A DNA stretch of 64,000 bases, from positions 10,672,345 to 10,736,344 of the forward strand of contig CM073326.1 in NCBI GenBank assembly GCA_037043015.1, written 5' to 3'. The notes beneath the pieces are model-generated. The model saw only the letters and a list, made by a program, of their open reading frames with translations, searched no databases and was not told the DNA's origin. A program made the position numbers and the translations under genes. This document shows, one piece after another, positions 926-63,314 of the stretch (positions are counted from its first letter, which is position 1; every line of letters begins with the position of its first letter). The stretch is from Bryum argenteum. Its lineage: Eukaryota > Streptophyta > Bryopsida > Bryales > Bryaceae.

Positions 926-1925
926 GGCGATCCTTCCTACCCACCAGCGTACCAACCTACCAATATACAAAGCTACCAACATACAAACCTATCAACCTAT
1001 GAACTTACCAACCTACCTACCTTCTTCTATGTTTTTTGGACTATGTATAAAAATAATCTTTAAAAATTCAAAAAATAAACACAGACATATATAAAAATAA
1101 TAAACATAGTATTGTTTGAGCAAATAGTAGACATGGGATACTTTTCTAAAAGTACCATATGAAGAGCTTCCTCGTCGAGACGACGGGGACCTTACTAGTC
1201 TATAATAAAATACTGTTCGACAATCCTTCCTACCCACCAATGTACCAACCTACGAACGTACCAACCTAGAAGATTACCAACCTACCTACCAACCTTTTTC
1301 ATGCCTATATATATAACAGAATTGGGTCCGTCGTCTGGCGATCCTTCCTACCCACCAATGTACCAACCTACTAACATATCAATCTACCAATGTAAAAACT
1401 TACCAACCTACCTACCTTCTTTTGTGTTTTTTGGATTATGTGTACATAAAAAAAGAAATACAAAAAAAAGGCATATATAAAAATAATAGGAAATGGTAGA
1501 CACATGATACTTTCTTGAAAGAACCATATAAAGAGCTCTCCATGGAGACAATGGGCACCTTCTGAGGAAGCATTGCTTTGACCTATATAAGAACGACGTG
1601 TATCACGCTAGTCTACTTCTATAATAAAATACTGTATGGCGATCCTTCCTACCCACCAATGTACCAACCTACCAACCTACAAAGTTACCAACCCACCTAC
1701 CTTCTTTTATGTTCTTTGGCTTATGTATTAAATATGTGTATAAAAAAATAAAAAAATAAAAAAATAAAAGTAATAATAATAATAATAATAATAATTTTTT
1801 TAAAAAAAGAAGAAGAAGAAGAAGAAAGAGGTTTGAGGAAATGGTAGACACGGGATACCTTTTTAAAAGTAATATGAAAAACATTGCCCGTCGAGACGAC
1901 GGGAACCTTGTCAGTATACAATGAA
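926..1925. repeat. Cluster of a dispersed repeat family (four partial units)
   Basis: Four related units begin near 927, 1221, 1343 and 1639. Each opens with a GATCCTTCCTACCCACCA-like core followed by a run of CCAACCTACC-type motifs. Each then has a segment around TTTTATGTTTTTTGGATTATG and an A/purine-rich tract. Three end with an AAAGTACCATATGAAGAGC-like segment and a GAGACGACGGG-type motif. A fifth copy lies at 52340-52525. No coding capacity is visible. The structure suits a non-autonomous element amplified in place, but I cannot assign it to a superfamily. Confidence 0.6.
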
Positions 1926-2266
1926 ATTCTTTCCATAAAAATGCCAAACAAAAGGCAACCGTGTTGATTCACAACCCCACGATTCTGACGATAATGGGGT
2001 CCGGTTGCAGCAGATGAATCATTCGAACGAGAAAGCGGGGACGGACGGATGGGGTTCATTATCCGGCTTCGAGGGGTAGTCCAGGGACCAGCCAGGGTTG
2101 AGAGGCCCAGAAGGACCAAGCGACCTTCTTCCACTGACGATTCCAGCAAAGTCCGACAGGTGGGGCGCGATCAGAGTGGGTGAGGTTCGCAATGGTGCGC
2201 TTGTAAGCGAAGGAAGCAAGCAAGGAAGAATTGAGATCGAGCCAGCTCTGATCGAGAGCAGCAGCA

Positions 2267-4397
2267 ATGCGAGGTTTGCAACAGACGCCGGGCGGCATGT
2301 TGCACTCTGGTGCTGCTGCTGCCGCTCGCCAGCCGTGGCTGTGTGCCCCGGGTGGAGCTTTCGCCCGCGTCGCCCCTAAGGCTGACCACGCCTCTGTCAT
2401 CGTCAAGGTATGGAATTCAGATTTTGGTCATACCCTCCATTGATCGCGACCACTCAATTGGCGCCAAATGGGTCAGATTCTTGAATCAATCCCCGCCAAA
2501 TGTTAGTGGTATAGGGGGTTTTTATTGCAGTGGAGCTGCATTGATGGTTTTTGTGTCATTCCTGTAGAATGTGGTACGTTTGATGGACGGAATTGGCGAG
2601 GGAATCCGCGTTGCTCAAGCTACGTCGTTGGGAATGTTGGTCGATTTGCCGAAACCGCCTGTTATTGACTTCGACAACCACCGCGGCCATCAGGTTTGAC
2701 ATTCTATCGAAATTCGGTACAATTCTTAGTCTTCTATCAGAGCAATGCACTGCAATCAGTAGATCCATACCCTAGCTGACATTATTTGGCGTTGCCGGCA
2801 GAATGTTAGAGAAAAGGAGGCTGTGACAACAAAGATCGAGGAGGAGGACGAGCCGCGGCAAGCCGAGAGTAGTAGTAGCAGCAGTAGTAGCAGCGCCAGC
2901 AGCAGCAAACCTAGAAAGACGAAGAAGCCATGGAATGGGCCAATATGGTCAAAGAAATCACCCTCGCGGCCGTCTCACACAGAAGAAGAATGCGCACAGA
3001 GAGTTTCCAGCATGTTAGACGAGCTTGAGGAAGATGGAGTGACGGGACCATGGGCAGTGGGCAATGTGCTAGATTTGTGGGTAGGCAAGGTAACACGAGT
3101 AGATCTATCAAAGGTGATCCGAGAACTTGGTGCAAGAAAAAACGCACCCCTCGCTCTCGAGGTTTTTCAGTGGATGCAAGCACAAAAAGGCCGTCTGAAA
3201 CCAAACAAGCACACGTACACTCTAGTCCTCGGAGTGCTGGGGCGAGCGGGCATGATAACCGAAGCTCGAGAGCTTTTTGACGCAATGGTGCTGTCTTCCA
3301 ACGTCGAGGTATGTGTTTACTCTTACAATGCCATGATTGGAGCGTACGCCAGGATTGGCAACTTCAAAAAGGCATGGAGGTTATACGAGAGCATGATAGA
3401 GCACGGTGTGCAAGCGGACGAAATCACACTGAGCATTCTTTTGAACGGGGTTGGCAAAGCGGACCTCCCTGTGGAGAAAGCGGAGATGATATTCTCCAGG
3501 ATAAAAGAGAACGGCATTCTACCGAGTGTGCAAACATACAACACGCTCATGTCGGTGCTGAGAAAACGAGGTCACGCAGCTCGGTGCAGCGAGCTTCATA
3601 AGGAGATGCAAACGCTGGAGGTCGTACCGGATATCTACACATTCAACACGTTGTTGATGATGCATGTAGACAGTGGGAACGTTAACGAGGCGATGGAGGT
3701 CTATGAAAGGATGAGAATCTCAGGGCTGAAACCCACGGTGGTGACCTACACAGGACTGATTCAGATGTACAGCCGTGGCTCAAAGCATAAGGAAGCGATC
3801 GAGCTCTTCCTTGAGATGCAACGAGTGGGCTGCAAGCCTGATTTGACGACGTATAGTCTGATGATCACGGTGTATGGCAAAGCGGGCTCTGCTGAAGAAG
3901 CTGCACTCGTGTTCAAGCAATTGCAACAAGCAGGGCTGAGACCGAGCGTGGTCACTTGGAGCTCTCTCATTCAGGTATTCGGGCGGCACGGGAGGTTGCA
4001 CGAGGTCGGTGCTTATTTCAATGAGATGCTGGCGTCCGGGTGTCAGCCGGACTTGACGCTTTACAACGTCATGATGGGGGCGTATGGCCGCCACGGCCAT
4101 TCCGTGCAGGCGGCCATTCTGTTTCGGAGAATGCAAGCCCAAGGGCTGAACCCCAGTGCAGTCTCCTATGATACCATGATCCAGGCCTATTGCCATGCTA
4201 AGCAACCTGCCGATGCACACGCTGTCCTGGACCAGATGACGAAGGCTGGCTTCACTCCTGATCGAATCTCTCGTGCCATGCTCCAGCAACAACTAGGTGT
4301 ACAATATGCAGGTGGTAGTCACGTATCCTTATCTCGCAAGGAGAGACGCAGGATTGCTCCCAGACAGGTTTCCTCTATCCGCTGTCATGTAAAGTAA
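2267..4397 (+). CDS. P-class pentatricopeptide repeat (PPR) protein, probably organellar
   Basis: Three exons were resolved by splice phase: 2267-2407, 2568-2693 and 2802-4397, all joined in phase 0, giving 620 aa. The ATG at 2267 opens an Ala/Arg-rich, acid-poor leader that looks like a plastid or mitochondrial transit peptide. A Ser-rich and then basic linker follows (about residues 97-130). From about residue 221 to 575 there are around ten 35-residue P-type PPR motifs (pattern P-x-x-x-T-Y-x-x-L/M-I ... A-x-x-x-F-x-x-M). No E or DYW domain is present, and the tail is basic. Such proteins bind organellar RNA to stabilise, splice or help translate it. The open frame also contains a GTG at 2823, but the frame continues upstream to the acceptor at 2801, so the true start is the transit-peptide exon. 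The exact orthologue and RNA target cannot be told from sequence. Confidence 0.88.
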
Positions 4398-5768: not shown

Positions 5769-7736
5769 ATGGCGAGTTTTGGAGCACAATGCATGTCTAA
5801 CCACGAGGAACAATTGAGTAAGGCAGTGTGGGCAATGCTTCAACGCACAAGAACACCTGAAGAAGAGCTCGAGTGGGAGATCCAACAACTTGAACAGCTT
5901 GGTGAAGAAAGCTACTACACCCCTTCTCAGAGTCCTGATCGAAGCCTCCTGGTCACCTTGGAGCAACGACACAACCGGATACTGCAACAAGTTGGTGGTC
6001 AGCACGTTAGTGGAGAAGGAACCGCATCTACGTCTCGTCAACCCACGCCGGTGTCAAGGAATTGGAGGCACACCTCGAACATTAACTTGGAGGAATTACG
6101 AAACATGGACCCCATCATTCGTCCAGCGGCTCCATTGTCCGCACCACCAGCGTTGGCTGCAGCTCCAAGGAAGCTCCTCCCCGACGACCAAGCGATCATT
6201 TCGGAAATTCTAGCTGAAGTTCCAGTGAGTTAATACATTGCCGTGACGCAAAGTTCACGAGCACGACTCCTTGGACAACGAGGCGTTGCGTTATCCCGAA
6301 GCACGATTGTCTACTTGCTCAGTGAGCCGTTGTGCCACTTGTTTCACCAAATTTGCAAGCTGCCATCATCTTCTGGTAACCGACCTGCCACTTATCCACG
6401 CCTACGGGGGTAAGTGCAGTCCATTGCTTTCCGGGTGTGGGGACAGGTTTTGCGAGTGATCCTGGCCAATGCTTACCCGATCCACTCCCCACCATGGGAC
6501 AGTCACCATCAAAGTCCTGAAGCATTTGGCCTCTTTGATATTCTGATAGCCTTCTGAGAAGAGCGACATACATATCACATCTCGGCTTGGCAGCGAACGC
6601 GAGACGGTTTCACAGAGCGAGGAGCGGCCATCTACTAAAAAGACTTCGAGCAGCTTCAAATCGAAGTGGTGGCATCTCCGTGGAATCGGTTTGAACGTGA
6701 CCAACTAGCATTGTGGTTGATCATAGACGGGTCCTTCAAAAGCTTGAAGTTTCCTGTATCAAGACCGGCACTGGCCAGCGGCTCCTTCGGCGTGACATCA
6801 GAGTTTAGTACCACGGAAGGATTCTCATTCAATCCGTCCCTAGAAGACATACCAAAAGAGTCAAATCTCCTCCGTACGCAGAGCACATGACGACGTCCGA
6901 CGAGGAAGCACCAGCAACACATCTTGATGATCTTCGCCGAGAGCTGTTGGCGATGAGTCCGGAGGAGGTCATAGCGTTCCTGCTGGAGGATGAGGTTCTT
7001 AACACGGTGCGACCAGTCATGACAGGACTCGACGCCATTGCGAGTCGATATCGACAAACACCCCCCGTTCCAGTATCGATTTCATCGTTTCAGCGTCAAG
7101 TTCCACACACTTCAATCACAACGCCTGGAGTCTCAACACCGTTACCGACATATTCACTAACATCACCATTTTTGGTTCAAGTCCTTCGCGTGCATCGTGC
7201 GAACATGGGGAGATTGCCTGCTCTCACCTTTGGTCGCTACGCTCTACATGATGATTTTGTTACCTTCTTGCGCGATTTTACTACCGTTGCCAATGCATAC
7301 AACGCCCCAGATTTGTATTGCATATCCCAATTCCGCTTCTGTCTGCAAGGTGATGCGAGATATTTGTTTGAATCTCGAGCTGATTCTCACGTACTCACAA
7401 GCTGGCAACGTGTACAGGAACTAGCGCACCAAGTGTTTGTTCCCATTGATCAGCACAACATGGCTTGGAAGTTGGGATTATCTGACCAGCACCAAATTCA
7501 AGTCATGCGACAATTTGGATCTTCACTTCTCCAGATTCGTCAAGCATGCAAAGATCGCTACTTCCACTTATGGCAAATTTATAAGACAGACGGCGCGCGC
7601 TCACTTCATACGATCACTCCCTCCTAATCTCATGGGACACAAAGTCTTTGGATGTCCACTCATGCTCAAGTGTGTGCCCGAATGGAAGACCCAACAGCAA
7701 CAAGTAGAGAAGGAGGCTGCAAAGCCTTTAAACTAG
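5769..7736 (+). pseudogene. gag: gag-like region of the gypsy element, disrupted
   Basis: Open segments at 5769-6233 (Gln/Glu-rich N-terminus) and 6887-7627 (capsid-like, rich in aromatic and Gln residues) are separated by about 650 bp of broken frame. The second segment continues in another frame to about 7736. No CCHC zinc knuckle is recognisable. The role as gag is inferred from position, between primer-binding site and protease, and from general composition. Confidence 0.6.
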
Positions 7737-7989
7737 TAAGTGCATCCATATGTAGTCGGGATGTGACATCAAGCACCAGGCCACGAGACATGACACTCAT
7801 CTCAATTACTTTTTACATGTTGAATTGCGTTGCCCCCTCCAACAAGCATGTTCTTATACTACCATGGGTCGTTCCACGAACCATTCTTGGAATTGAGCGA
7901 CCTTGTATCATTGAAACTAGCTCCAACCTCACAGCCATTCCCTTTTCTCTTACGCAACTTACTCAGGTCAAAATTTGGCCAGCAAACAT

Positions 7990-8690
7990 TTAAGTCACCA
8001 TCGCCAATGGCACGTCATACACGCCACTTTGTATGATCACTATTCCTATTACAGTTGCAGGAATCACCGCCACCGTTGACGCGTTGGTGAGCACCGGTGA
8101 CAAAGTCATGTTAGGGCTGGATTGGCTGTCTAAGACCGGGAGTGTGCTTGACATCGCCCACCGACAGATGAGGTTATGCCCTGAGCCGCATGTATCACAA
8201 TTGGTAACTCTGTCGTCAGTAGCCATGAGGCCTCGAACGACCCTATTGCACATTCAGGAGCTGCCGGCAACCGAAGTGGCGGGCAATCGATACGACTAGC
8301 GAAGATTCTTGAACTTCAAGGCTAGAGACAATCATCTCTATCGATGGCGCGTACCGCCAGCAGGGGAGAAAGGCGATCCACCATCAACAGTGCATCAAAA
8401 ATCCTTCTTGTTAAGTACGACCGGCGATATCACGATTCCACCATTTAGTCAACACCTGTTTTGCTCCAGCCAAGCAGTCGCATGCCCACGGGATCACTAC
8501 ATACAAGTTGACCCATGGAGACGACTCACGGAGCAGACTCACAGGATGACAGCGCATGGATTATATGATTCACGCTATCGTGGTGAGCTCAAGGTACTTA
8601 TCGCCAATCCCACCATTTCTCCTCTCACAATTCGTAGCGATCAAGTTGTCGCTCGAGTATCAGCGGTCCGCGCGATCCGACTTGGTTAAT
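7990..8690 (+). pseudogene. Retropepsin-like protease and linker remnant
   Basis: The frame at 8033-8299 contains the late retropepsin-like motif L-G-L-D-W-L and downstream hydrophobic strands typical of gypsy proteases. The catalytic D-S/T-G triplet is not intact: a VSTGD string sits where DSGA/DTGA would be expected. A linker with weak similarity to the protease-RT connector follows in another frame (8309-8689). Confidence 0.6.
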
Positions 8691-8816
8691 TGCGTAACAC
8701 CAGTGTCCGATGCCTGTCCGGGGATCGAGAAGGTGATTCCTGGCTCCAGCTCTCTCTCTCACAAGAGTGAGCCTCTTCAGCCCATTGAGATCCAAACTGA
8801 GGAATAGACAAAGTTC

Positions 8817-9899
8817 ATGATGGTCATGCGGGACATCAAACTCGACGCCAACTTGAAACCAACTCAACGTCATGAAGTGACCCGCGTGATTCACGATAAT
8901 TTGGACATCTTCAGCCATGATGCAACAGACTTAGGGCGATCTTCTCTTCTCACGCACAACATAGTTACTGAAGCATCTCCAATACGTCAAGTCGGGTATC
9001 GTGAGAGTCACAAGGAGAAAGATATCATCAAAACTGAAGTTCAAAAGCTACTTGATGTCGGCGTGGCTAGCCCGTCTACATGACCGTGGGCATTACCAGT
9101 AGTCCTTGTCGAGAAGAAGGATGGGAGCACTCACTTTTGCATCGACTACAGACGACTTAATGCCATTACGAAGGACACATATTCACTTCCGCAAATTGAT
9201 GACACGCTAGATCAATTGCAAGGTGCTACCATCTTTTCATCTAATGATATTGCTTCTGGCTTTTGGTAAGTGCTCCTGACAGAGACAACAAAAGAGAAGA
9301 CAACCTTCATTTGCAGGGAAGGATTGTTCCACTTCAACACTATGCCTATGGGTCTCTGCAATGCCACTCACACATTTCAAAGACTCATGGACATGGTGCT
9401 AGGCAAACTTCGTTGGGAATGTGCACTAGTCTATGTTGATGACGTCAATATTTACTCACGCACTTTTGAGGAGCACATACGATATCTTCGACGAGTTTTC
9501 TCCGAAATTCAAGACGCCTACTTAAAGCTGAAGGCGAAGAAGTGCGTGATTGGTCTTCCAGAGCTCATCTACCTTGGTCATGTTGTTTCTGCAAATGGCA
9601 TTCGCCCAAATCCAACGAAAATACAAGCTGTCGCGCAGTTCCCACAACCGGTCAACTTTGAGTGCACTCAATCCTTCATTGGGCTCGTCAATCACTATCG
9701 ACAGTTTGTGCAAAGTTTTGCTCTATTAGTTGCTCCTCTCTACAGGCTTCTCAAGAAAAATGTCCCCTTTGTGTGGAAACCGAACAACAGCAAGCTTTTG
9801 AAAAGCTCAAGCTTTCATTGTGCTCCGCTCCACTTCTCATCTATCATTATTTCCGGTTACCATTCTTATTACAAACTGATGCAAGTCGTGACGCCATAG
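8817..9899 (+). pseudogene. pol: Reverse transcriptase remnant
   Basis: The polymerase domain is clear. A K-K-D-G-S-x-H-F-C-I-D-Y-R-R-L-N block lies near 9112-9165, followed by the M-P-M-G-L-C-N-A fingers/palm block and the catalytic Y-V-D-D box at about 9432-9443. An in-frame TGA near 9081 and a TAA near 9267 interrupt it, and the frame shifts after about 9790. Order and motifs are those of Ty3/gypsy elements. Confidence 0.85.
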
Positions 9900-37800: not shown

Positions 37801-40800
37801 TCTACCTCCAAACTAACGTTCCCGGTTCCCATCCTTCGTTCCCAATTCCCTCTCCGACAACTTCTCTTCTTGGTTTCCATCATTTGTTCCTAGTTCTCAT
37901 AATTCATTCCCGGTTCTCATTATTTGTTCCTAGTTCCCATCCTCCGTTCCTAGTTCCTACCCTTCGTTCCCTCGATCTCCCTGTTCACTCCTTAGTTTGC
38001 TCTTATTTTCCATGTTTCACATTCCATGTCCTTTCGACTCCTTGTTATATAATTGATATTTAATAAACTCTTAATAACAATCAAATACCACTTACAAAAA
38101 CTCTCCAAAATCTTCAAAACTCTGCATACCATATATGTACATGACCAAATGATGATGGCCATGACCATGACCATGCATGTATGGTGTATCGCCAAGAACA
38201 GACAAACAAATCGTATTCTTTTATATCTTGTCATGTCACTCCCTCATCTACTGAAATCTAATCCTCTTAAGAGTGTCAATTTTGCAAAATTTTACTTTCT
38301 TAGTAGAATCATGGTTCCCCATAGAATCAATTCTCCTACTAGTATAAGGTAGTCAAACCTATGAGAAAGACAGAAATGTAAAATAAACATGTCAATGAGA
38401 GGATGCACTTCTCATATGAAGTGCAAGATATACTTAAATATCACCTCAATTAACAAACAAACAGATCATAGACTACACTCAAGAATTAGAATGATGGTGC
38501 AAGTAACCACCAGAAATGAAAACAGTTTGCCATGGTTCCAACTGTACGGGAGTTTTGTGCGACTGACTCTTCCCTGAGTGTATCTCGAAGTTGAAAGATT
38601 AGCAGGATGTGAAAGGTTGTTTTGTTTCATTCATTCGGGGTTTGTGCAGTGATCGGGTTGGAGAAAGTAACAGCCCACATTATCAACAAAGATTTGTTAC
38701 AGAACCAAAAAGCATTCACGGCTGCACATCATTGTCTGCGCTCTCTGTTGGAGTCCATGGTGGACCTCAAGGACAGTATGGACTCGTCGGAGTCTGACAG
38801 AAGTGGCTCCTCGGATTCCCAGTGCGATTCCGGGTCTAGTCAGGATGACGACGACGACGGCAGCATGAATGTAAGCAAGCAAGGCTCAGACAGTCCTTTT
38901 TATGTATGTACTGTCAGAATTGAGTGCGGAGAATGACAACTTACAGAGGCAAATGCAACAGGATTCACAGTCGGATGCTTCGAATGCTTCGGATGAGGAG
39001 AATGCAAGTGCAGCTCATGAAGAAACGGAGGAGGAGTTTCTGGAGCGGTATGCTCAGACCGCTCGTGACTTGCAGGATGAAGCTTGTGAGGAAGCAGAGA
39101 ATGGACAACATGAAGATGGCCATGAGCTCGCACTTGGTAATGCATCCATCAATCAATCAACTCTTCTTCTTTCATACTATTTCATACTAAGGTATGAGCA
39201 CCTTTAACCCTCAAACGCCCAAGCAAGCCCGAGGGGCTTGATTCCAACAGAATCTTCCCTGTAGCTCTCACTGTACTCAACTTTTCACTTATATTTTGAT
39301 GTCAAACTGGTCACAGTCTTATGATGCATTCAAAAGTGAAATTTTACAATTCAAATCACAATTTGTATGAATGATTTTGTGCTTTGAAAGGATTGTGGTA
39401 GGTAGGTTGGGGTTGTACATAACCTTGTAGGAGGTTGCAAGCTCATCATTGATTGGTCCATTCATGATGCCCAAGTTCAAAAAGTGCACTATTCATGATG
39501 CCCAAGTCCAAAAGATGTTGTGATCCAATTTTGGGCTGCCCGTTTTAGACCCCATGGGCGTTTAAGGGTTAAGGGAAGCACCCCACATAAGCAATCATGC
39601 ACATTAGAATCTTGCTTTAATGAAGATTTGACCACCTTAACCCTGATACAAAATTGTCTAAATTATCAGAGAGGACCCTCTTCTACTTCAGGTCCAGAAA
39701 AACTCAATCTAAACATTAATTAGAAGATCCAACCGTAGGATCTTGAAGTTAACTTGACCTTGTACTCATATGTCAAATTTGAACCATTAAATTTTCTCCC
39801 ATTCTGAGATTATAATGGTCAAAGTTGGCTGACTTTTTCCCTGCGGAAATCCCATAAAGCCATTTCGGCTTTCTTGGATCTTCAGGGGTTAATGTACCCC
39901 ATATGGACATATAGCAAGGTGTCTGATTATATGTTAACCTATGTTGGTCATTTCTAAAATTTGTAAATGTTATTGTAAGTGCAATTGATAAATATCATAA
40001 AATAAATAGGATAAACTTTATTTTTCTATTTTCTAATCACTGAAAAATAGTAAGCCTCTCATTCCACGACTCCAAGTAGTCAGAGTGAATTTCTTCAATG
40101 ACACAAAAATAGGTGTTCATTCCTCAATGACTAAAATGTACCCGTGGTGTCCTCGAAACACATTCCAACTTTATTTGGGTCAAACCCGAGTTCTATTTTG
40201 GTTACACTCCAACTTTATTCGGGTCACACCCCAACTCTATTCAAGTCACACTCCAACTTTATATGGGACATATCCCAACTTTATAATGTATGTTACACCT
40301 AATTTTTTATGACATCACTCTTTCAACCTCCATGTTCTCACCTCTCCTACCTCCATAATGTCATTCCTCTACAATGTCACCTCTCAACACTTAGGACCTT
40401 GTTGCCATTGTACCCTATAACCATTGGACCCTGTGACCATCGTGCCAATCATGGAAAGGAGAGGTTGACAAATACATGCACTGCGCTTTGTTGTAAATGG
40501 TATTAGATATTTACACCATCAACACTACTCTAAATTAGCCACACTATACAGTCAGGGTTTGCTATAACTTTTTACTTTTGATAAATAAAATTACTGAGAA
40601 AATAACTACATATAGTAGTCAAAGAAAGGCAAACTTGTGAACATAGTTAGTAAATTTTTTGATGAACAACAAAAAGTTATAATGGTTATATATCAATTAG
40701 TGCAGACAACACTAAATATATATTATAGTGTAGTGGAACCAAGAAGATTATTATTATTATCTCCAATTTTTTCACCTTGTGATATTACTTCTTCATTAAT

Positions 40801-42645: not shown

Positions 42646-43790
42646 GTTTGGGAACCAAACCTTACTTTACTACTTTAGAGAAAGATCTGCCATGCCATGT
42701 TGAAATAAGCGCCATTATAGAGCACGTTATTCAATTAAACTCCACAACAATCGTATCCCACCACCACCACCTACACCATGATATTCATCATTCAAGTGCC
42801 CATTTTCTCCGATTTTCATTGCAAAAGCCCACTCCCGTCTGAAATGGGGCAGGCGTACTGCTACCTACTTTTTATCAACCAGAGGTATGATAAGTCAGAA
42901 AACTGAGAATAAGATTGACATGACTTCAAGTGCGTAATGGTCTGCAATGTCAGTGAGGCAGGAATGGACACAATTCATTCAATGCAAAATACCACAACAA
43001 CATCATTCACTGTGCATGTCCCTTCGTGTAGAGTAACTACTGCATTCACGTCACTTTCGATGTTTTCTCAGTTTTTGTATTTTGGAAGTACGTACGGTTG
43101 GTGTACTACCACTTTTTGTTGATTTTTTTACCACCCATCATGAAACTACGAGCATTTACTATGTTCCAAAATCTCAGTAAATCTCAGTAAAGCCCCTCGA
43201 ATGCGGGCCGCAAATCATGGCTTAAGGTCGAACAGCCTATTCCCGAGCCCCACCCCATTGCCGAGACCTAAAAAAATCTGTAAATTCGTGACTTCACTGC
43301 CCATAAGCGTCCGAGAGATGAGGGGGCCGGACTTAGTGGCGAATCTGATGGATGAATGAAAACAGTGGACGGTTGCAGGTTATTTTAGTGATGGAATTGT
43401 GGGCGCAGCCTATCGAAATTATGAAGCAGTTGAACAATATCAAGGTGGCAAGTGAAGATTGGGATTACGCATGCAAACAAACAACTGTGGGATAATAGTG
43501 CACATATTATGAACAATGGAGGCTCGGTTTAATGAAGCCGCCTTATGGTTAATGTTGGTTGCAACACTGCAGTAAAAAACAATGCAAAGCTTCAGAATTG
43601 TGTACAATTTTGTCACTTGCATGATTCAAGCTCTCAGTGCTAAGTTCAGTGCATGAAGGTGAGAAAAGTGAGCAATCAGATTTGGCTTCGATTTGCATGA
43701 GTGTCGAGAGAAGAATATAAGGTTTATTCCTGTGGAGTGAACAGCCTGTGAGGTGGTAGCTATTGAATCCGTTAAGTACAGTGAATTGTC

Positions 43791-46676
43791 ATGGCAAATT
43801 CTCATGAGAATTCGGAATCAAACACAATGCGAGCAGCTAGGATTGGTACTGGGGTGCCTGTGAGCGGATCAACCACAATCATGGGAGGGTGGCGTCCCAA
43901 TGCAACACATGCATTCCGACATGGGCAGGCGGCAACCTACGTCGGTGGTGCATTCGATATTCCTGCAGCCGCAGTGCCGTATTAGATCCGTAACACAGCT
44001 ACAGGACGAGGCCCAGCAGTGTGCACTTCACCGCCGGGAGCGTCGCCAGCGCATGGCGGATACGCGACAGTGCCGGGGAGAGTCTCCGTCAGTCGACCGC
44101 AATCTGCAGCGACGCCGCGAAGGAGCTTGGGATCAGCTGCGACGCCACTGCTGCGATCTGGGAGCGGACCTCTTTCGACAGACACATTTGCAGAGGCCGG
44201 ATCTGCCGGCGCTCCCACGGCAGAAGTCGGAGCCGTCGTCAGCGAGCTCGGCCTGCGCCTGGGTACAGGTGAAGGTCTTCGGCAGCGCGGAGATGAATGT
44301 GCGGTACAGACAGAGCCTGTACAAGATCAACATGGCGCAGACAGAGTGGGACTTCGGCAATGCGGCACAGACCCAATACAAGATCAACGAGGTGGTAAAC
44401 GCAGAAGGTGTACCTGGACAAATGAAGCACTCAGATCAGCAATCGCAGCAGTTGAAGCTGGAGGGAGAATCAAGACAGTTGCAAGGTATTTCGATATCCC
44501 TCCAACCTCCTTATCAGATCACCTGTTTGGTAGAACTCGAACTCGGAAAAGAGGCCCACCCACAGTACTAAAGCAGGAAGAAGAGAGTGCACTAAAAACA
44601 TACATGACCAAGATGCAAGACTATGGTCACCCTCTATCCATGCAACAACTTCGTTTGAAAGTCGCGACTATTACTCAAGAGAGGGTTACACCATTCAGAG
44701 AAGGTATTCCAGGGGGTAGTTGGGTACGGTGGTTCAAAAGAAGACACCCTGATTTGACTTTAAGAAGCTCCCAGGGACTAGAGTTTGCAAGGGCAAAGGG
44801 ACTATGTCCTGTCAATGTTGCATCCTTCCACAAGAATTTGGAGGAGCTTTATGACACATTCAACTATCCACCTTCAAACATATGGAATTGTGATGAAAGC
44901 GGGGCACAAGCTGGCCGAAATGGAGGTGCTTTGGTATGGTGCAGGAGAGGATCTAAGACTGTGCACTCTCTAATACCCAATGAGCGTGAGTGGGTCACAG
45001 TATTATCATGCATCAATGCAAGCGGCCAGAGCATTCCAGGGTTCTACATTTTTAGAGGCAAAAGAATGAGGGAGAACTATATAGCACGATGTGAGGACGG
45101 AGCTAGCATGGCTATGCAACCAGAAGGGTGGATGACTGCTATCTTATTTTCACATTGGATATCACATTTCATTAAATCGCTTGAGAGCAGAGGTGGAATC
45201 TCAGCTACCAATCGACACTTACTCATTGTAGATGGCCATAACTCGCACGTCACTTTGGAGGTTGTACACAAAGCCATGCAAGTTGGTTTGGATCTGGTCA
45301 CCTTGCCATCTCACACGAGCCACCGTCTGCAACCACTAGATGTGAGCGTTTTTGGACCATTCAAAAGAGCATTCAAGCGATACAGAGATGCATGGACTTT
45401 GCGAAACGCAGGGAAAGGCGCATCAAAGACGGTGCTCGCACAATGGGTCTCCGCTGCACTACAGAAGGCTTTGACAGAGAACAACATAAAGGCAGGGTTT
45501 AGATGTACCGGAATATGGCCGTTGAACCCACACGCCGTTGATAAGTATATGGCGCCATCTGAGCAGTTTGTACAAGCATCTGCAGCACAAGAAAATCATG
45601 ACTCAGAATCCGACGAGGATCTCTACGAAATGGACGAAGATGATCAACAACAGGACCCTCCAATGCAAGAAATTTTGGGAGACAGGATACCCTCCACTCA
45701 GCCAGATCGGCAGCATTACTTCGTGGGTGAGTACGAGCCCGAGCCTGGCAACGACAACGGTATCGTAGGGCTTACCAACGTCCTGGGCAGCGCGACACAG
45801 TCGAACTTCGGCAGTGCGGCAAAGTGGGACTTCGGCAACGCGGCACAGCAGGAGTTCGGCAGCGCGGCACAGCACGACTTCGGCAGCGGAGCACAGCACG
45901 ACTTCGGCAGCGGAGGGGCCGGGGGACTCTGCAGTCAATCTCGCCAGCAGGGTAACGGATCGGCAGCGCCCTCCATCGACCACTTCCTCCAGCTCCCCGA
46001 GGTGGTTGTGCAGCCACGACAAAGGCAAACTCGAGAGGAGCCTCTTATCGATTACAGCAAGAGTATCATGTTAACTAGCGAAGAGTATCTGCAGAGCATG
46101 GAGCAAAAAGCTGAGCGGAAGGAGAAGGCGAGAAGAGAAGCAGAACAACGTAAACTGGAGGCTCAGCGAAAAAAAGAGGCTCGGGCAGTTGAAAAGCTCA
46201 GAAAAGAAGCAGAGAAGGCCCAAAGGGAAGTTGACTCACGAGCGAGGGAGGTCTTCAAGCGACAGTGGACCGCGGATGCGATTCGTGAGGCTGGCGAATG
46301 CTTGCAATGGCTGCTGAAAAATGGGCCTCCTCCTACCGCAGGTGCATACATCGCACCATACTGTGGTGTCTTGCCTGCAATTTGTAAGGAAAACATGGCG
46401 TGGAGGCTCGCGAAGCGCAGGGCTGTGAAGAATGGCGACGGCAACGCTGCCGAGATCCCACCGGCGAATGCTCCTCCATGGGTCCACCGAGGCGACCCTA
46501 AATACGCAGAAGAGCCTTCTGTCAATGCAGGCCAGCCGCTTACTCCCACATCGACAGGTCAGAGAGTCGCATATCCATCCGCGCGTTTCTCGGCGATGGA
46601 ATTCGTTGAGGCGGGTGAGAGCGCCGAGGCGGGTGATGGCGCTGATGAAGCTGTCGGGCTCAACCAGGCTGCTTGA
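43791..46676 (+). CDS. Pogo/Tigger-like transposase (DDE_1 superfamily)
   Basis: The frame is open from 43986 to 46676. In the same frame an ATG at 43791 opens 64 codons that end at a TAG (43983-43985), so either the copy has one nonsense change or the 5' end is spliced or recoded. Counting from 44019 there are about 885 residues. An HTH_psq/CENP-B-type DNA-binding region lies at about 128-240 and the catalytic domain at about 285-520. The DDD triad is D292 (N-C-D-E-S-G), D405 (V-D-G-H-N-S-H) and D441 (Q-P-L-D-V), with 35 residues between the last two. Then come an acidic stretch, an F-G-S-A-A-Q-type repeat (about 590-635), a Lys/Glu-rich coiled coil (about 680-750) and a C-terminal tail. The enzyme would cut and paste the surrounding element. 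No in-frame ATG lies between 43986 and the catalytic part except one at 44604, so the true N-terminus is unresolved. Confidence 0.85.
45787..45918 (+). repeat. 24-bp coding repeat in the transposase gene
   Basis: About five copies of a 24-bp unit (TTCGGCAGCGCGGCACAGCA-like) encode an 8-residue F-G-S-A-A-Q-x-D repeat. A further copy at about 44345-44376 lies in a different reading frame. Confidence 0.8.
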
Positions 46677-47541
46677 GAGCCGTTGGCGATTGGTGGAGTC
46701 CTGCCTCACGGAGCCACTTCAGTATGACGTCACATCTTTTCACTATTTTAGGTCGGAATTACAGTACTTTCCGGTCATGTGTATGTGCTCATCCCACGAG
46801 GATAAGCTTTGCCAGTTTTGGAGTGACATGGGTGTACGAACGCCTTTGTAGCACTGTCAAGGCAGTTTTAACTTACCATTGCTCTAATTTTGCACCATGT
46901 ACAGCCCGTCAAGTAAAATGAGTAGTGGCCGGTTTTAGGCTATTTTTGCTTCTCTTACAAGGCAAGCTACGTCCACTTGTAGGAGTCTACTGCTCAGAAC
47001 TTTGAAATTCCACTGTAATTACATACTTTATCGGAAATTAAATTTTAATTTTGTATTATACTTCTCATCTATTTCCTATGTTCTCAAAAAACAAATTACA
47101 CCCTGCTTCAAAGTACAAGTTGCTGAGCTCCTTAAAGGGCCGGGAATAGGCTGTTCGACCTTAAAAACCGGAGAAGAGGGGGTATGGGAGGGTCCAGCTG
47201 GAGGGGTCTTGGGGGCGGGGGGTCTTGGGGTTTGCAGATTTATCCCATATTATTTGTAGCTGCTTCCTCCCAAGAGCAAGTACAAGAGGACTACGGCTAG
47301 CCTCAAAGAATAATATTTTATAAAGTAATGTGCACTCATGGGGTCCATGTGGCATGAGAGGAACTAAATTAATTAATTAATGCTGCTACATAGTGAAGTT
47401 CACCTATGAAGCAACATCTCATCGAGCATTTATTATGCACTTACGTAACTTTGGGCGGGAAAATTCGTTACTCCACCAATGAAAATGATATTCTTGATTG
47501 CACTAATCTACATCAAAATGTTTATATTCTTGCCCCAACTA

Positions 47542-47928: not shown

Positions 47929-48169
47929 CCCCTAAAGGTCCAGGAAAGCGAAAACTACTTTTTGGAGTCCAAAATTCAGCCAACTTTGACCATTATAATT
48001 TCACAAATGAAGAAGAATCAACGGTTCAATTTTGGCAAGTGAGTGGAAGGCTAAGTTAACTTCAAGATCCTACGGTTGGATCTTCCAAATAATTCTTAGA
48101 TTGAAAGTTTTTAGGCCTGAAGTAAGGGAATGTCCATTTTTACAATTTTGCATCAAGAACCTTTAGGGT
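47929..48169 (+). mobile_element. TTAA-flanked MITE
   Basis: It starts CCCCTAAAGGTCC after TTAA (47925-47928) and ends near CCTTTAGGG before TTTAA. It is homologous to 39641-39888 in inverse orientation. Confidence 0.7.
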
Positions 48170-48426
48170 TTAAATAAATCTTTGACCGCATTGTATTGCT
48201 AGTAAGGGAATCTTTAAGTTACATGAGTTTTGGTTGTCCATGTCTTGTGATATTTTCATCGTTGACTTATTTTGAAATTTATTCCCTATAGCTCTTTTAA
48301 CCCTTAAAGTTTCCACATGAGGTGTAGATTAGTGACAGTAGACTAAGAATAGTTTAGCTTCTTTTTTCCCCAAATAAACAAGTTAAGAGAATATGTTCAC
48401 AACCAAATTTATGTGCTTATTGGTTA

Positions 48427-48493
48427 ACCCTTAAACGCCCACCACTGTGGAAAATATACTGAACGAAGCAAACCCCAAGGGCTTGCTTGGGCG
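48427..48493. mobile_element. Very short TTAA MITE or terminal fragment
   Basis: It starts CCCTTAAACGCCC after TTAA (48423-48426) and ends GGGCGTTTAA. The inner GGGCTTGCTTGGGCG resembles the end of the 39208 element. Confidence 0.55.
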
Positions 48494-48499
48494 TTTAAC

Positions 48500-52824: not shown

Positions 52825-53797
52825 CCCCTAAACGTCCCCAATGTCGTTTTTCAACATTTTGGATGGAGGGCAGAAACTTCGAATAACCATATTTTCTTCA
52901 TCCGAGGTCCGTTTTGGATGAAATCACTTGGGTTAGGTTCCAAATCAAGTCTAGTTTGTGTTGTAAAATTTGCAAGCCCATACAATAAAGTATGAATTAA
53001 TTAAATGCACTTTAGTGAAGACAGTTCTTGTTTTTGGGTTTCCAAGCATGGGGCATGTATTACCATTGCAAGCCAATTATGTGAAACCAAAAATAGTTTT
53101 TAATGATTTTTTTTTTCATGGTCATGATCTTAAGGTGATTCTTAACAACTTTGTAGTGAGAAGTTTTTTGATCCAAATGATTTTGCTATTGGCTTTGCAA
53201 TGATGTTTTGTCAACAGAAAAAGTGAGAAAATGGATGATATTTGAGGAGCTATATCTCCTTCATCTACCGTTGGATTTCAACTTAATTTTTTGGGATAGC
53301 CTCCAATTAGAGTCTAGTCTAAGTGGTAGAAACCTTAACAAGATCAAAGATGTTTTGAAGATAAGGCATGAAATTGAATGCAAAGGGTCCAATTTTGTAC
53401 TATTTTTCCTTTGTAAAATTTTTGGCAGTTTTTACCATTGCATGGCTTTTATTTGAGCCAAGAAATTTTTTTGATGAATTTTTGTTGGGTAAAGGACTTA
53501 TTAAGATGAAGGTGAACATCTTTCTAGCTGGTGATTTTTTCATTGCAATAGGTATATTGGTAGCATTTCAACCTCAAAGTGAAAATGAAGAAATTTTGCA
53601 GTTTGTTTTTAGTATTATTATGTTATGATCTCTCGATCTATAAGGCCTCATGACTCAAATTTTGGCCCACATGATCTTCGATAAGTCTATTACAAGTTTG
53701 TATGGTTGAGATCTTAATAGCTTCTCTTCATTTTTATCTATGACGAATTCTATGGAAATGTGCTTTTCTGCTAAAAATAGGCTGGGACATTTAGGGG
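52825..53797 (+). mobile_element. TTAA-flanked MITE, about 970 bp
   Basis: It starts CCCCTAAACGTCCC and ends GGGACATTTAGGGG, with TTAA on both sides (52821-52824 and 53798-53801). It is highly similar along its length to 62333-63314 in opposite orientation. Short open frames of 77-86 codons inside are shared by both copies but resemble no known protein. Confidence 0.8.
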
Positions 53798-53801
53798 TTA
53801 A

Positions 53802-55026: not shown

Positions 55027-58000
55027 ATGGCTACTTCGCAGCAGCAGCAACAGCAGCAGGAGCAGGTGTATGAGGCGAGAGGAGGAGGATATCGCGATGA
55101 TGGACTGTGGAGAAGGCTGCTTACACGAGCTCAGCAAGGGACCAGCAATCACAACTTCTTTCTTGTCAATGTGGTGGAAGGATGTGTGCACACCAACTTG
55201 TTTTGCAAACTTGTAAGCTCCCCTTGAAACACTACTCTCACATGTTACACCACTGTCCGTCGTTACAGCCTTTTTGGGCTGAATTCTGCAATGTGTTCCT
55301 TGTCTCTGGAACTTTTCAATCAATTGGTGGAACCTCATCTTCTAGAAGCGGGTACATTTAGCTGATAAGGTGGGCGAACCTATGAGTGGCTGATTTAGAT
55401 ACTCGTCAATCAATTACTCTACGAAAAGGCATGAAATTCTTCTTCTTTGAGTAGTCGTTTGGAGTTGAGTATCACTCTCAAAAAGAGGTTCAGCCCTAAT
55501 TTTAAGAAGAGACATTGAGTCACTGAGGGCCTTGCCACACAAGAGGGAGAGGAAGTTTCACAACTTCCTCCAACATGGCACTTTGCCTTCTTTTTCCTTG
55601 TTTTTCTCCTTACAATGTGGGCTTCTAAGCACTAATGCCCGGTAGTTTTGGAAATACATTTATTGTGCCATGTCACGTTACTTTATTGCCATGTAGATTC
55701 CAAAGTATTATCCAAAGCAAAATCCAAAGCTAGAATGTTGTTCCATGTCATTGTTGTTTCTCCCATTACTTCCTCTCATGTGGCAACCACTTGCTCATTT
55801 CAACCAATACAATTCCTCCAACTCAGTGCCTTTTCTCTCGTGTGGCAAGGCCCTTAAGGTGTAGAAGAGGAGGCCTCCAATTCTTCTTCTTCCTTGATAT
55901 ATACTGGAAACACTAAAATCCATGATTACATAATTGGGGTATGTTCCAAGAATTAGGGTTCGGGTGGGAATGAAGTGTTCACATGCTACCATTCAAAGGT
56001 AGGTGTGATATTATGAAGGGTGTGATAATAAGGGGATTAGAGTGTACTTGAAGTTCAGTCCAGTGCCAGGGTTTAAGAGAGGCCTAGGTTTCTCTTTGAA
56101 TCACCCGTCGCATGCACTGGTATCCTTTTCATTGTAACTATGACATTTAAGAAATCGAGGTTCAGCGAGCTGTTGATGTTGTTAGTTCCTCAGGCAGCAG
56201 TTTACGAGCCGATTCTATGGCAATGGCTTATCGGAATGTCAAGATATATATTTGTGTCGGTGGAAGATTGAATGTATCGTTGGGTGGACATGAATTGCAG
56301 GGTCTGCCGACGGTGTTTATGCACCATCACTACAAAAGCCTGGGTGAGCATGTAATTCTGGAAGGTCCAGATGGTAAGCGATGGCCAACCATGCTGGGGC
56401 TGCAGTTAGATTCACAGCCGTGCTTGATGCATGGGTGGAAGGAGTTCGCAGCCAGTTACAACCTCGAGCTCAAAGATCAGATTGTGTTCCTTTTACTTGA
56501 AAGCTCCCACTTCTTAGTTCAAGTGTATGATGCCAACGACAGGGTGAAAAGAAGAAGGGCCATTCCACCTCCGCCTCAGAATATCCAGTACGCTCGTACT
56601 GAAGATGTGAGAGCAGCAGCAGTAAACCAAGATTTTAGACTATTTAACCAACCTCAGAAAATGAAGTACGCTCGTAGTGAAGATTGGAGAGCAGGGAACC
56701 AGCCTCCGAATATGAGCTGTGCTCGTAGTGAAGATTGGAGAGCAGGAAACCAGCTTCCGAATATGAGCTGTGCTCGTAGTGAAGATTTGAGAACAGGAAA
56801 GCAGCCTCAGAATATGAGCTGTGCTCGTAGTGAGAATTTGAGAACAGGAAAGCAGCCTCAGAATATGAGCTACGTTCGTAGTGAAGATATGAGAGCACCT
56901 CAGAATATGAGCTATGCTCGTAGTGAAGATTTGAGAGCGGTAAACCAGTCTCAGAAAACGGGCTACGCTCGTAGTGAGGATCGGAATGCAGTAAATCAAG
57001 TCAACACTCCTGCACGACAATCGATTTCACTTTCAGTACACGATTATGATCCAAAAGCAACGAGGCCTACCCAAACTCACGGCGAAGTCTCCCCTCGTCG
57101 ATACATTCAAATCCCTGACAGCAGTGAAGAGGAGAACGAAGATGAGAACCAAGCTCGTCCTCCTTCAGTCTCTTTTCCTGTTCTCTCCCATAAACAGGAT
57201 GCTTCGGATGGTACGAAGGTCGGAGGTAGTGACAACAAGATGACATTGAGAAGCGCCGCCAAGGCAGCAGCTGATCTTGTGGTACCAACAAAAGATGATG
57301 CTGTTCTCAACCCACCTTCGAGTCCAGAGTCGATGGTAGTGTTGAAGAGATCCAGGAGGCTGCAACGGAAGTCTGGCGATTACGAAGGAGATGACTTAGG
57401 GCGTGCAACGACCAACATTTTGCGAAGGAAGTTGTACAAACTTAGTTCAGCAGTATCTCCAACTGGGGAAACAGAATCTGCAGTCATCCCATCAAAGGAA
57501 CCGGCAACTTCACCTCCAAAAGAACCTGCAACCCCACCACCAAAGGAACCTGCAGTCCCACCGAAGGAACCCGCAGTCTCACCAAAGGAACCCGCAGTTT
57601 CACCAGAGGAACCTGTAGCTCCATCACAAAAGGAGCCTGTTACAGCCTGCACTATCAAAGCATCAGTATACAGTGAGTCATCAGCAATAAAGCTTGTAAA
57701 CTCCTGTTGCTCCACACAGCAGTCATCCATGAAACATCGAGAGCTCCATCAGAGGACCACAAGTATCTCGTTGAGCCCGTCAGAGAATGAAAAGAGAAGA
57801 CCTGTGGAAGAGGCCTCCAAGAGAGCCGTAGCAGCTCACAACCTGTTTTACATTTCGAAACGACGACCTGTCACAGCTCAGGAACGACACAAAGCACTCG
57901 AAGCTGCACAAGCGTATGCTCAGAGCTTACCTACGAACAAGCATTACGTTCTGCCACTCTCCGTCGCAATCTACTGTGGTTACCATCTGGTAAGCGAAAG

Positions 58001-58437
58001 CACAAACCCTCCACACCAAAATAAACTTCCAGAAGAAGGAAAAGGGTTGATTTTGAACATACTGTGGAGATGTGATGTACTATCGGGTTTTTATGCAGAG
58101 AGTGCGACCCGAATTTGTGGAAGCCCTGCAGCTCCCGTTGTCAACGATGTGGTTGAAGCTCTGTGACAGCAGTGGCAAAATGTGGGAGATCGAGTGGAAG
58201 GGTGACCATCCTCGGCAGCACGTCAGCAGCCAAGGCTGGACCAAGTTCGTCGTGGAGCATTATCTGGAAGAAGGCGACGTGTGCGTGTTCCAGAAATGTG
58301 CACCTAACTTCCCCAAGATCATCCTCTCCGTGGAGATTTTCCGCATCGTTCCCCTGCTCGAGGCTCCGGAAGATGGGTGGCGCAGTCACTACATCATCCC
58401 TGACAGACAGTTGCTACCAACTGAGTCCCAATGCTGA
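55027..58437 (+). CDS. B3-domain protein with two B3 domains (REM/VRN1-like)
   Basis: Three exons, all phase 0: 55027-55212, 56301-57989, 58099-58437; 737 aa. Exon 1 supplies a poly-Gln N-terminus and the first strands of B3 domain 1 (N-F-F-L-V). Exon 2 continues it with G-L-P-T-V-F, then G-P-D-G-K-R-W-P and H-G-W-K-E-F (domain about 40-145). Residues 155-296 hold eight 17-residue repeats (core N-M-S-C-A-R-S-E-D-L-R). About 459-509 is a Lys-Glu-Pro-Ala repeat. B3 domain 2 spans about 607-720, with L-P-L-S-V, R-P-E-F-V, G-K-M-W-E-I, S-Q-G-W-T-K-F-V and L-E-E-G-D-V-C-V-F. B3 proteins bind DNA in the nucleus. The ATG at 56217 is intronic by this model: joining exon 1 at 56301 completes the B3 fold. 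Intron 1 (1088 bp) carries a TIR element. Confidence 0.85.
55526..55854. mobile_element. TIR MITE in the B3 gene's first intron
   Basis: Inverted ends AGGGCCTTGCCACAC(A)AGAG (from 55526) and CTCTCGTGTGGCAAGGCCCT (to 55854) define a 329-bp element without coding capacity. I could not fix a target duplication. Confidence 0.75.
56575..57000 (+). repeat. 51-bp coding minisatellite in the B3 gene
   Basis: Eight in-frame units; one is 42 bp. Variation is mostly single-base, and the 3-bp frame is kept throughout. Confidence 0.88.
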
Positions 58438-62191: not shown

Positions 62192-62332
62192 GAGAGGCTT
62201 TGTTCCATATACGGTAAATAGAAATTTTTTATAGCTATTGTGTTGTCTTCTAATCGTATTTGTTTCTTCTCATCTGAAAGTGGGAGGTCCTTTTGATCCA
62301 GTGGTATGAACCAATTTTATTGGCACATTTAA

Positions 62333-63314
62333 CCCCTAAACGCCCGAGCCTATTTTTAGCAGAAAAGCACATTTCTTTAGAAATTGTCATAGATGAAAAT
62401 CAAGAGAAGCTATTAAGATCTTAACCGTACAAACTTGTAATAGACTTATCGAAGATCATGTGGGCCAAAATTTGAGTCATGAGGCCTTATAGATTGGGAG
62501 ATCATAACATATTAATATCAAAAACAAACTGCAAAATTTCATCATTTTCACTTTGAGGTGGAAATGCTACCAATATACCTATTGCAATGAAAAAGTCACC
62601 AACTAGAAAGATGTTCACCTTCATCTTAATAAGTCCTTTACCCAACAAAAATTCATCAAAAAAATTTCTTGGCTCAAATAAAAGCCATGCAATGGTAAAA
62701 ACTACTGAACATTTTACAAAGGAAAAATAGTCCAAAACTAGACCCTTTGCATTCAATTTCATGCCTTATCTTCAAAACATCTTCGATCTTGTTAAGGTTT
62801 CTACCACTTAGACTAGACTCTAATTGGAGGCCATCCCAAAAAATTAAGTTGAAATCCAACGGTGGATGAGGGAGATATAGCTCCTCAAATATCATCCATT
62901 TTCTCACTATTTCTGTTGACAAAACATTATTGCAGATCCAATAGCAAAATCATTTGGATCAAAAAACTTCTCACTACAAAGTTGTTAAGAATCACCTTAA
63001 GATCATGACCATGAAAAAAAATAAAAAAAAATCATGAAAAACTATTTTTAATTTCACATAATTGGCTTGCAATAGTAATACATGCCCCATGCTTGGAATC
63101 CCAAAAACAAGAGCTGTCTTCACTAAAGTGCATTCCATTAATTCATACTTTATTGTATGGGCTTGCAAATTTTACAACACAAACTAGACTTGATTTGGAA
63201 CCTAACCCAAGTGATTTCATCCAAAACGGACCTCTAATGAAGAAGATATGGCTCTTCAAAGTTTCTGGATGTACATCCACAATGTCGTTTTTCGACATTG
63301 TGGGCGTTTAAGGG
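62333..63314 (-). mobile_element. TTAA-flanked MITE, about 980 bp, minus-oriented copy
   Basis: It starts CCCCTAAACGCCC and ends GGGCGTTTAAGGG, with TTAA at 62329-62332 and 63315-63318. Partner of 52825-53797. Near the right end is a perfect 9-bp hairpin (ACAATGTCG-TTTTT-CGACATTGT, about 63280-63302). Confidence 0.8.

Follow-up and report, generated by a model that had tools for sequence, protein, structure and literature searches.

The 64,000-nt stretch of DNA analysed here (the window, C6:10672345-10736344 of a searched assembly of 258,844,377 bases in 25 contigs) contains what is very probably a recently transposed, full-length cut-and-paste transposon of the pogo superfamily in a plant-like genome. 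Support for this comes from the ends of the element, the TA duplication, empty sites, sister copies, the domains of the encoded protein and its catalytic triad (Table 1). The element occupies positions 43225-47161 (3937 bp), and the perfect 21-bp terminal inverted repeats (TIRs) flanked by TA that had been described in a first-pass annotation were recovered, with 21/21 positions matching and a TA outside each. Together with the flanking T-TA they form an inverted repeat (43222-43245 / 47141-47164) in which 24/24 bp are complementary and whose arms are 3895 nt apart. Inverted-repeat pairs of at least 20 nt number 24 in the whole window, two of them 100% complementary, the second being a 21-bp pair at 3858/4463 that is unrelated to the element. 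A chance origin of the TIRs is further excluded by the same TA-flanked ends at a sister copy and, in diverged form, on contig C11. The total length, the TIRs and the 896-codon frame all fall within the ranges given for the superfamily (length 1.2-5.2 kb, transposase 300-977 aa, with TIRs) in the available text of a published survey (PMC7386202).

The matches to DDE_1 and HTH_Tnp_Tc5 both exceed the Pfam curated cut-offs, and the triad of aspartates (44892, 45231, 45339) is intact with 35 residues between the second and the third (DD35D), as first annotated. All three aspartates were invariant in a 9-row alignment of the window transposase with eight others from the same genome, two of those eight (L005 and L007) being near-identical. 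In a wider survey of 38 loci, which included overlapping and partial loci and the window's own, 32 aligned over at least one triad position, and 24 of these showed all three aspartates. Of five relatives scanned, four gave a psq match, each below the cut-off (E 0.037-0.15), and the window protein had no match to CENP-B_N up to E 5, with one relative (L022) at 0.046, again below the cut-off. An AlphaFold model (mean pLDDT 54.5, pTM 0.28) predicted N-terminal helices that fit two helix-turn-helix domains, those at residues 8-43 of the model corresponding to the putative psq-like first one. By analogy with the family the N-terminal helix-turn-helix domains would bind the terminal repeats, and catalysis by the three aspartates would cleave the DNA strands and integrate the excised element at a TA, with duplication of that dinucleotide. 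A search of a plasmid collection gave no match to the element, two stretches that matched a pattern in viral_contigs were not confirmed, and a PDB sequence search returned two chance-level matches (E 0.56 and 0.88), both to the charged C-terminal stretch.

Insertion site and copies in the genome

A genome search with the whole element gave 45 matches, of which the close ones were the window copy, a sister copy and an older, fragmented copy at C11:6347452-6358293 (76-94% identity); other matches covered parts of the element at 64-84%. The sister copy is represented by two matches on C6, 15866055-15867168 (query 1-1113, 94%) and 16042296-16045100 (query 1106-3942, 97%), which lie in the same orientation and are read as the halves of one copy. 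In the left half the stretch L069:3400-3900 has many small indels relative to the window copy, a product of either decay or sequencing error. An exact 18-mer of the element end was found at four places genome-wide, two in each close copy. A recent burst of copies was considered and rejected on this count, and because a search allowing up to three mismatches gave 146 matches against 116 for a reversed control pattern.

When the two flanks of the window copy were joined with a single TA (a 401-nt query, with 40 of 302 candidates scored, so that the counts are lower bounds), 46 matches were obtained, two of which were the flanks themselves. Among the 44 others 41 spanned the junction without interruption, from which it follows that the element was inserted inside a dispersed host repeat, ~240 bp long and with at least 44 matches elsewhere. 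The sole empty site checked base by base (L075) was continuous across the junction with one TA. The sister copy is flanked by GGTAGT-TA on the left and TA-GGCCTC on the right, and a host tandem repeat beside it reads GGTAGT-TA-GGCCTC, i.e. the empty sequence with a single TA. Empty sites of this kind, which the first-pass annotation had suggested looking for, are thus present both in the dispersed host repeat and beside the sister copy.

The target site is TA. That it might instead be TTAA, which would make this a piggyBac-type element, arises from the fact that TTAA stands at both ends of the window copy (43222-43225 and 47161-47164), so that its own empty site cannot separate the two. However, the sister copy has TTAA at its left border and TTAG at its right, and its empty repeat is compatible with TA only, while the C11 copy likewise lies between TA dinucleotides and is bounded by CTAA and ATAA. 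DDE_1 was moreover the only transposase catalytic domain matched in the window protein. The TTAA reading, contradicted by two other copies, was rejected and can be given practically no weight.

The halves of the sister copy lie 175,127 bp apart, separated by an insert at C6:15867169-16042295 (L069:4170 to L070:4296). The 8 bp TCAACATG are found at both break points. The insert, known from its outer 4-5 kb at each end, has ends that match at 20/22 bases, start with CAGGG and carry the end sequence CAGGGTTGTCTTNNTAGACA, as well as subterminal repeats common to both ends. An 8-base duplication with a CAGGG end is a combination we take to be hAT-like. No convincing Pfam match was obtained for the three frames scanned near the insert ends. 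That the whole 175,127 bp moved as one unit, which would make it a giant or macro element of hAT-like type in a plant, seems unlikely on this evidence. If it did so, the two pogo copies bound the age of the move, since the insertion must postdate their split. For maize, the available parts of two reports describe alternative transposition that uses ends belonging to two nearby elements (PMC4270019, PMC9910405).

Age and constraint

With the C11 copy as outgroup, the window and sister copies were compared at 1410 sites (810+395+205, with 9 window positions occurring in two pieces), gap columns and five sites at which all three copies differ being set aside. The window copy had 6 private changes (5+1+0) and the sister 42 (37+3+2). 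On this difference, sequence comparison supports a window copy that would be young or very near the source. The suggestion of youth made at first annotation is thus strengthened by these counts together with the single-TA empty sites.

A number of observations nevertheless weigh against a recently transposed, full-length element. Copy number is low, with two close copies, one old one and four exact ends genome-wide. Of the sister's private changes 37/42 fall within its left half, a region with clustered single-base indels, and some of them may be sequencing error; in the 600 sites of the right pieces the window had one private change versus five in the sister. Relative to the window, the 1125 aligned columns of the sister's left half contained 16 gap openings and the 2837 of its right half two. 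Decay or sequencing error in the left half would inflate the sister's count and not that of the window. An in-frame TAG is present upstream of the transposase frame in the window and also in the sister copy. Over 44400-46676 the two differ by 12 synonymous and 23 non-synonymous changes, a ratio of non-synonymous to synonymous change (pN/pS) of 0.56, which suggests that no strong constraint has operated since they parted. The catalytic part of the AlphaFold model was poor, so that the catalytic fold is unconfirmed by structure. At the protein level the sister is dead, the second aspartate codon having become Asn and the Trp codon at 44883 a stop.

Comparisons with the C11 copy speak in favour of the main reading. 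Against C11 pN/pS was 0.44 and 0.17 in two core pieces, and substitutions at the three codon positions of the coding core (11/9/20, 11/12/26 and 1/3/9) showed a third-position excess, which was absent from the 3' flank of the gene (25/16/16). A long open frame in which the triad is kept could also be expected of a pogo-derived gene domesticated by the host. Such a gene is very improbable here, given the perfect TIRs and TA duplication, the empty sites in the repeat and the pN/pS of 0.56 relative to the sister. Nor is the copy unique, which at first annotation had been counted among the signs of domestication, as close copies stand at other places with their own TA.

The in-frame TAG and autonomy

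The first-pass annotation had allowed that this copy of the pogo element may be autonomous, and plain autonomy is not borne out. The in-frame TAG follows the likely ATG at 43791, which has a good context, and separates it from the 896-codon frame, while the next in-frame ATG, at 44604, lies inside the HTH_Tnp_Tc5 match. The autonomy of the window copy is therefore in doubt. As two copies with the TAG stand at different TA sites, by parsimony the TAG predates their last common source, and being older than the last transposition it belongs to a lineage that has moved. Either this lineage would have moved in trans or the TAG would be skipped in reading. The copy may thus depend on a transposase from elsewhere, or the TAG may be removed with a short intron whose 3' end it forms.

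It is quite possible, if short of probable, that the copy is non-autonomous, the TAG being a nonsense mutation (CAG to TAG) in a lineage moved in trans by another copy or a relative. The C11 copy carries CAG where the window and sister carry TAG, and of the seven indels relative to C11 in 43791-44396 six have lengths divisible by three, the pattern of coding sequence. There are also related transposases with long open frames, which could act in trans. Set against this, both TAG copies stand at separate TA-flanked sites, and with no third-position excess of substitutions against C11, unlike in the coding core, and a codon-usage score of the N-terminal stretch that settles neither way, 43791-44396 may not be one exon. 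The present-day sister, with its lost aspartate and its stop, cannot be the helper.

Continued mobility of the TAG lineage would be explained if the TAG served as 3' splice site for an in-frame intron of 126 nt (43860-43985); the copy would then be autonomous, with a 919-residue transposase. The donor at 43860 is GTGAGC in the window and sister and GTGAGT in C11, the acceptor TAG in two copies and CAG in C11, and both exon ends, counted by hand, are in phase 0. This intron was, however, read post hoc from a single alignment, chance alone can readily supply a GTGAG donor in ~200 nt, the strength of the splice sites was judged from a general consensus, and the 53% G+C of 43791-43985 is not obviously intron-like. 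It is regarded as rather unlikely, and as less likely than movement in trans. That the element would be usable in trans is plausible; MITE-like elements of ~405 bp with similar ends exist, while the exact 18-mer of its own end is confined to the two close copies.

Relatives, affinities and neighbouring features

In a genome search with DDE_1, in which 150 of 222 candidates were scored, 150/150 matched and 103/150 by hand count had no stop inside the match. As this count covers the domain only, the dead sister copy is among the 103. Thirteen of the 150, the window included, lay in frames of at least 700 codons with no stop in the match. With 103 of 150 matches free of stops an intact DDE_1 domain is not exceptional in this genome, and the earlier impression that most other elements are decayed fails, at the level of the domain, for these genome-wide matches. 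For the four loci with the highest scores (L001-L004), tblastn at 1e-5 found no match to the window transposase, so that not all 150 have been shown to be pogo; at least 25 other fetched loci did match it. A search for inverted ends of at least 15 nt around 14 relatives yielded none but one 16-nt pair (L020), in stretches too short to judge.

Seven pairs of ends were obtained from loci carrying the TIR, of which five belong to one family resembling miniature inverted-repeat transposable elements (MITEs) and two (L052 and L055) lie outside it. Four members (L043, L045, L050 and L056) are 89-95% identical over ~405 bp, and L048 (512 bp) matches the family in three pieces at 87-96%. Their ends are similar but not identical to those of the element, and the TA lies one base beyond these ends. 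The match to the element is restricted to the ends (~26 bp), with nothing inside better than E 0.05; derivation from this very element was therefore rejected, and the family probably belongs to a relative.

Table 1. Features of the pogo element, its insertion site and the related MITE-like family
Feature	Position	Strand	Basis or remarks
Dispersed host repeat interrupted by the element, left part	43179..43224	.	Joined-flank search
Left TA target-site duplication	43223..43224	.	TA rather than TTAA according to sister and C11 copies
Left terminal inverted repeat, 21 bp	43225..43245	+	Arm of perfect 24-bp repeat; sister counterpart C6:15866059
Putative start codon, in frame with transposase	43791..43793	+	Context GTCATGGCA; kept in sister and C11; presumed start
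Hypothetical 126-nt in-frame intron, GTGAGC...TAG	43860..43985	+	Suggested by alignment; donor GTGAGT in C11
In-frame TAG, nonsense codon or 3' splice site	43983..43985	+	CAG in C11, TAG in sister
Transposase frame, stop to stop, 896 codons	43986..46676	+	Open reading frame
First helix-turn-helix, psq-like (putative)	44400..44520	+	Weak psq matches in relatives; window copy below detection
HTH_Tnp_Tc5 DNA-binding domain	44577..44765	+	Pfam 4.3e-7, 30.2 bits against cut-off of 22.2
First catalytic Asp codon (WNCDESG)	44892..44894	+	Upstream of DDE_1 match; motif and alignment invariance
DDE_1 catalytic domain	44985..45500	+	Pfam 1.5e-22; contains second and third Asp
Second catalytic Asp codon	45231..45233	+	Asn codon in sister copy
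Third catalytic Asp codon	45339..45341	+	Alignment of relatives
24-bp tandem repeat giving 8-residue repeat in protein	45786..45912	+	Shorter version in sister copy
Right terminal inverted repeat, 21 bp	47141..47161	-	Sister counterpart C6:16045080
Right TA target-site duplication	47162..47163	.	Sequence, empty sites in host repeat
Dispersed host repeat interrupted by the element, right part	47164..47353	.	Joined-flank search
MITE-like family, ~405 bp, TA flanks	L043:1501-1905, L045:1501-1905, L048:1501-2012, L050:1114-1518, L056:1115-1518

Features that mark the superfamily are present, namely DDE_1 with a DDxD triad, an N-terminal HTH_Tnp_Tc5 and a TA target-site duplication (either TA or TAA/TAAA being accepted). 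The first-pass label of Tigger/pogo-like thus stands as regards pogo, on domains, triad, TIRs and TA. Tigger is not established and is neither supported nor excluded, as the spacing and domains fit several families and cannot separate Fot-like, Tigger, Passer and Lemi. In the available text of the survey a 35-residue spacing is compatible with Tigger, Fot/Fot-like, Passer and Lemi alike (PMC7386202). Tigger elements there are DD29-36D with CENP-B_N and HTH_Tnp_Tc5, a single HTH_Tnp_Tc5 also being reported; the element resembles them in a spacing within that range, HTH_Tnp_Tc5, TA target and short TIRs, but CENP-B_N was unmatched in its protein and its host is plant-like (PMC7386202). Fot and Fot-like elements are given as DD35D with HTH_psq and/or HTH_Tnp_Tc5, and some of them target TA, so that spacing, HTH_Tnp_Tc5 and target are shared (PMC7386202). 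The psq-type first helix-turn-helix of that group is here weak, below the cut-off and seen in relatives only, being undetected in the window copy, and most of the group, in contrast to this element with its 21 bp (24 with flank) and plant-like host, have TIRs of 40-60 bp (PMC7386202). Lemi (DD29-42D, HTH_Tnp_Tc5 alone or with HTH_ABP1_N) agrees in spacing range, the single HTH_Tnp_Tc5 allowed and a plant host, which is not diagnostic alone, but its land-plant reports are from 23 eudicot species, and the comparison is by description only (PMC7386202).

Two pogo-like sequences of clade 38 from Selaginella, also a seedless land plant, were likewise compared by description only, from the available part of the source (PMC7325037). 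The Tc1-like elements PpTc1 and PpTc2 of the moss Physcomitrella are similar in being recently amplified, in their TA target and in having empty sites in repeats, but differ in a DD34E transposase of 338 aa, a length of 1.6-1.7 kb and ends reading CAGT, as far as the accessible text describes them (PMC4054914).

Other features were also found in the window. Two inverted-repeat segments (39213-39837 and 47971-48496, ~79-80%) bracket the region holding the element, and in its neighbourhood is a PPR gene with nine PPR_2 stretches. Further along, a frame at 56151-58166 combines a B3 DNA-binding domain (3.7e-8) with a tandem repeat of 51 bp (17 residues per unit); on the strength of this frame and the PPR gene the host is taken to be a land plant. 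A long inverted repeat is formed by 52871-53801 and 62329-63267, whose arms (~940 nt each, in two pieces) are 94-95% complementary and separated by 8.5 kb. Probable retroelement remnants occupy 6809-9899, with a reverse transcriptase match at 9270-9896 (2.7e-15); the frame at 6809 had no Pfam match.

As a mobile element this copy is ordinary and of a known pogo kind, with good support for its youth and for TA as its target site. In the available parts of the surveys pogo appears little amplified in land plants, with a small eudicot clade, Lemi (PMC7386202), and two Selaginella sequences (PMC7325037). A non-exhaustive literature search on pogo in bryophytes and mosses, which is no proof of absence, recognised no account of moss pogo elements. 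A genome with 150 scored DDE_1 matches would be well suited to the study of a diverse population of pogo-type elements beyond the groups covered by those surveys.

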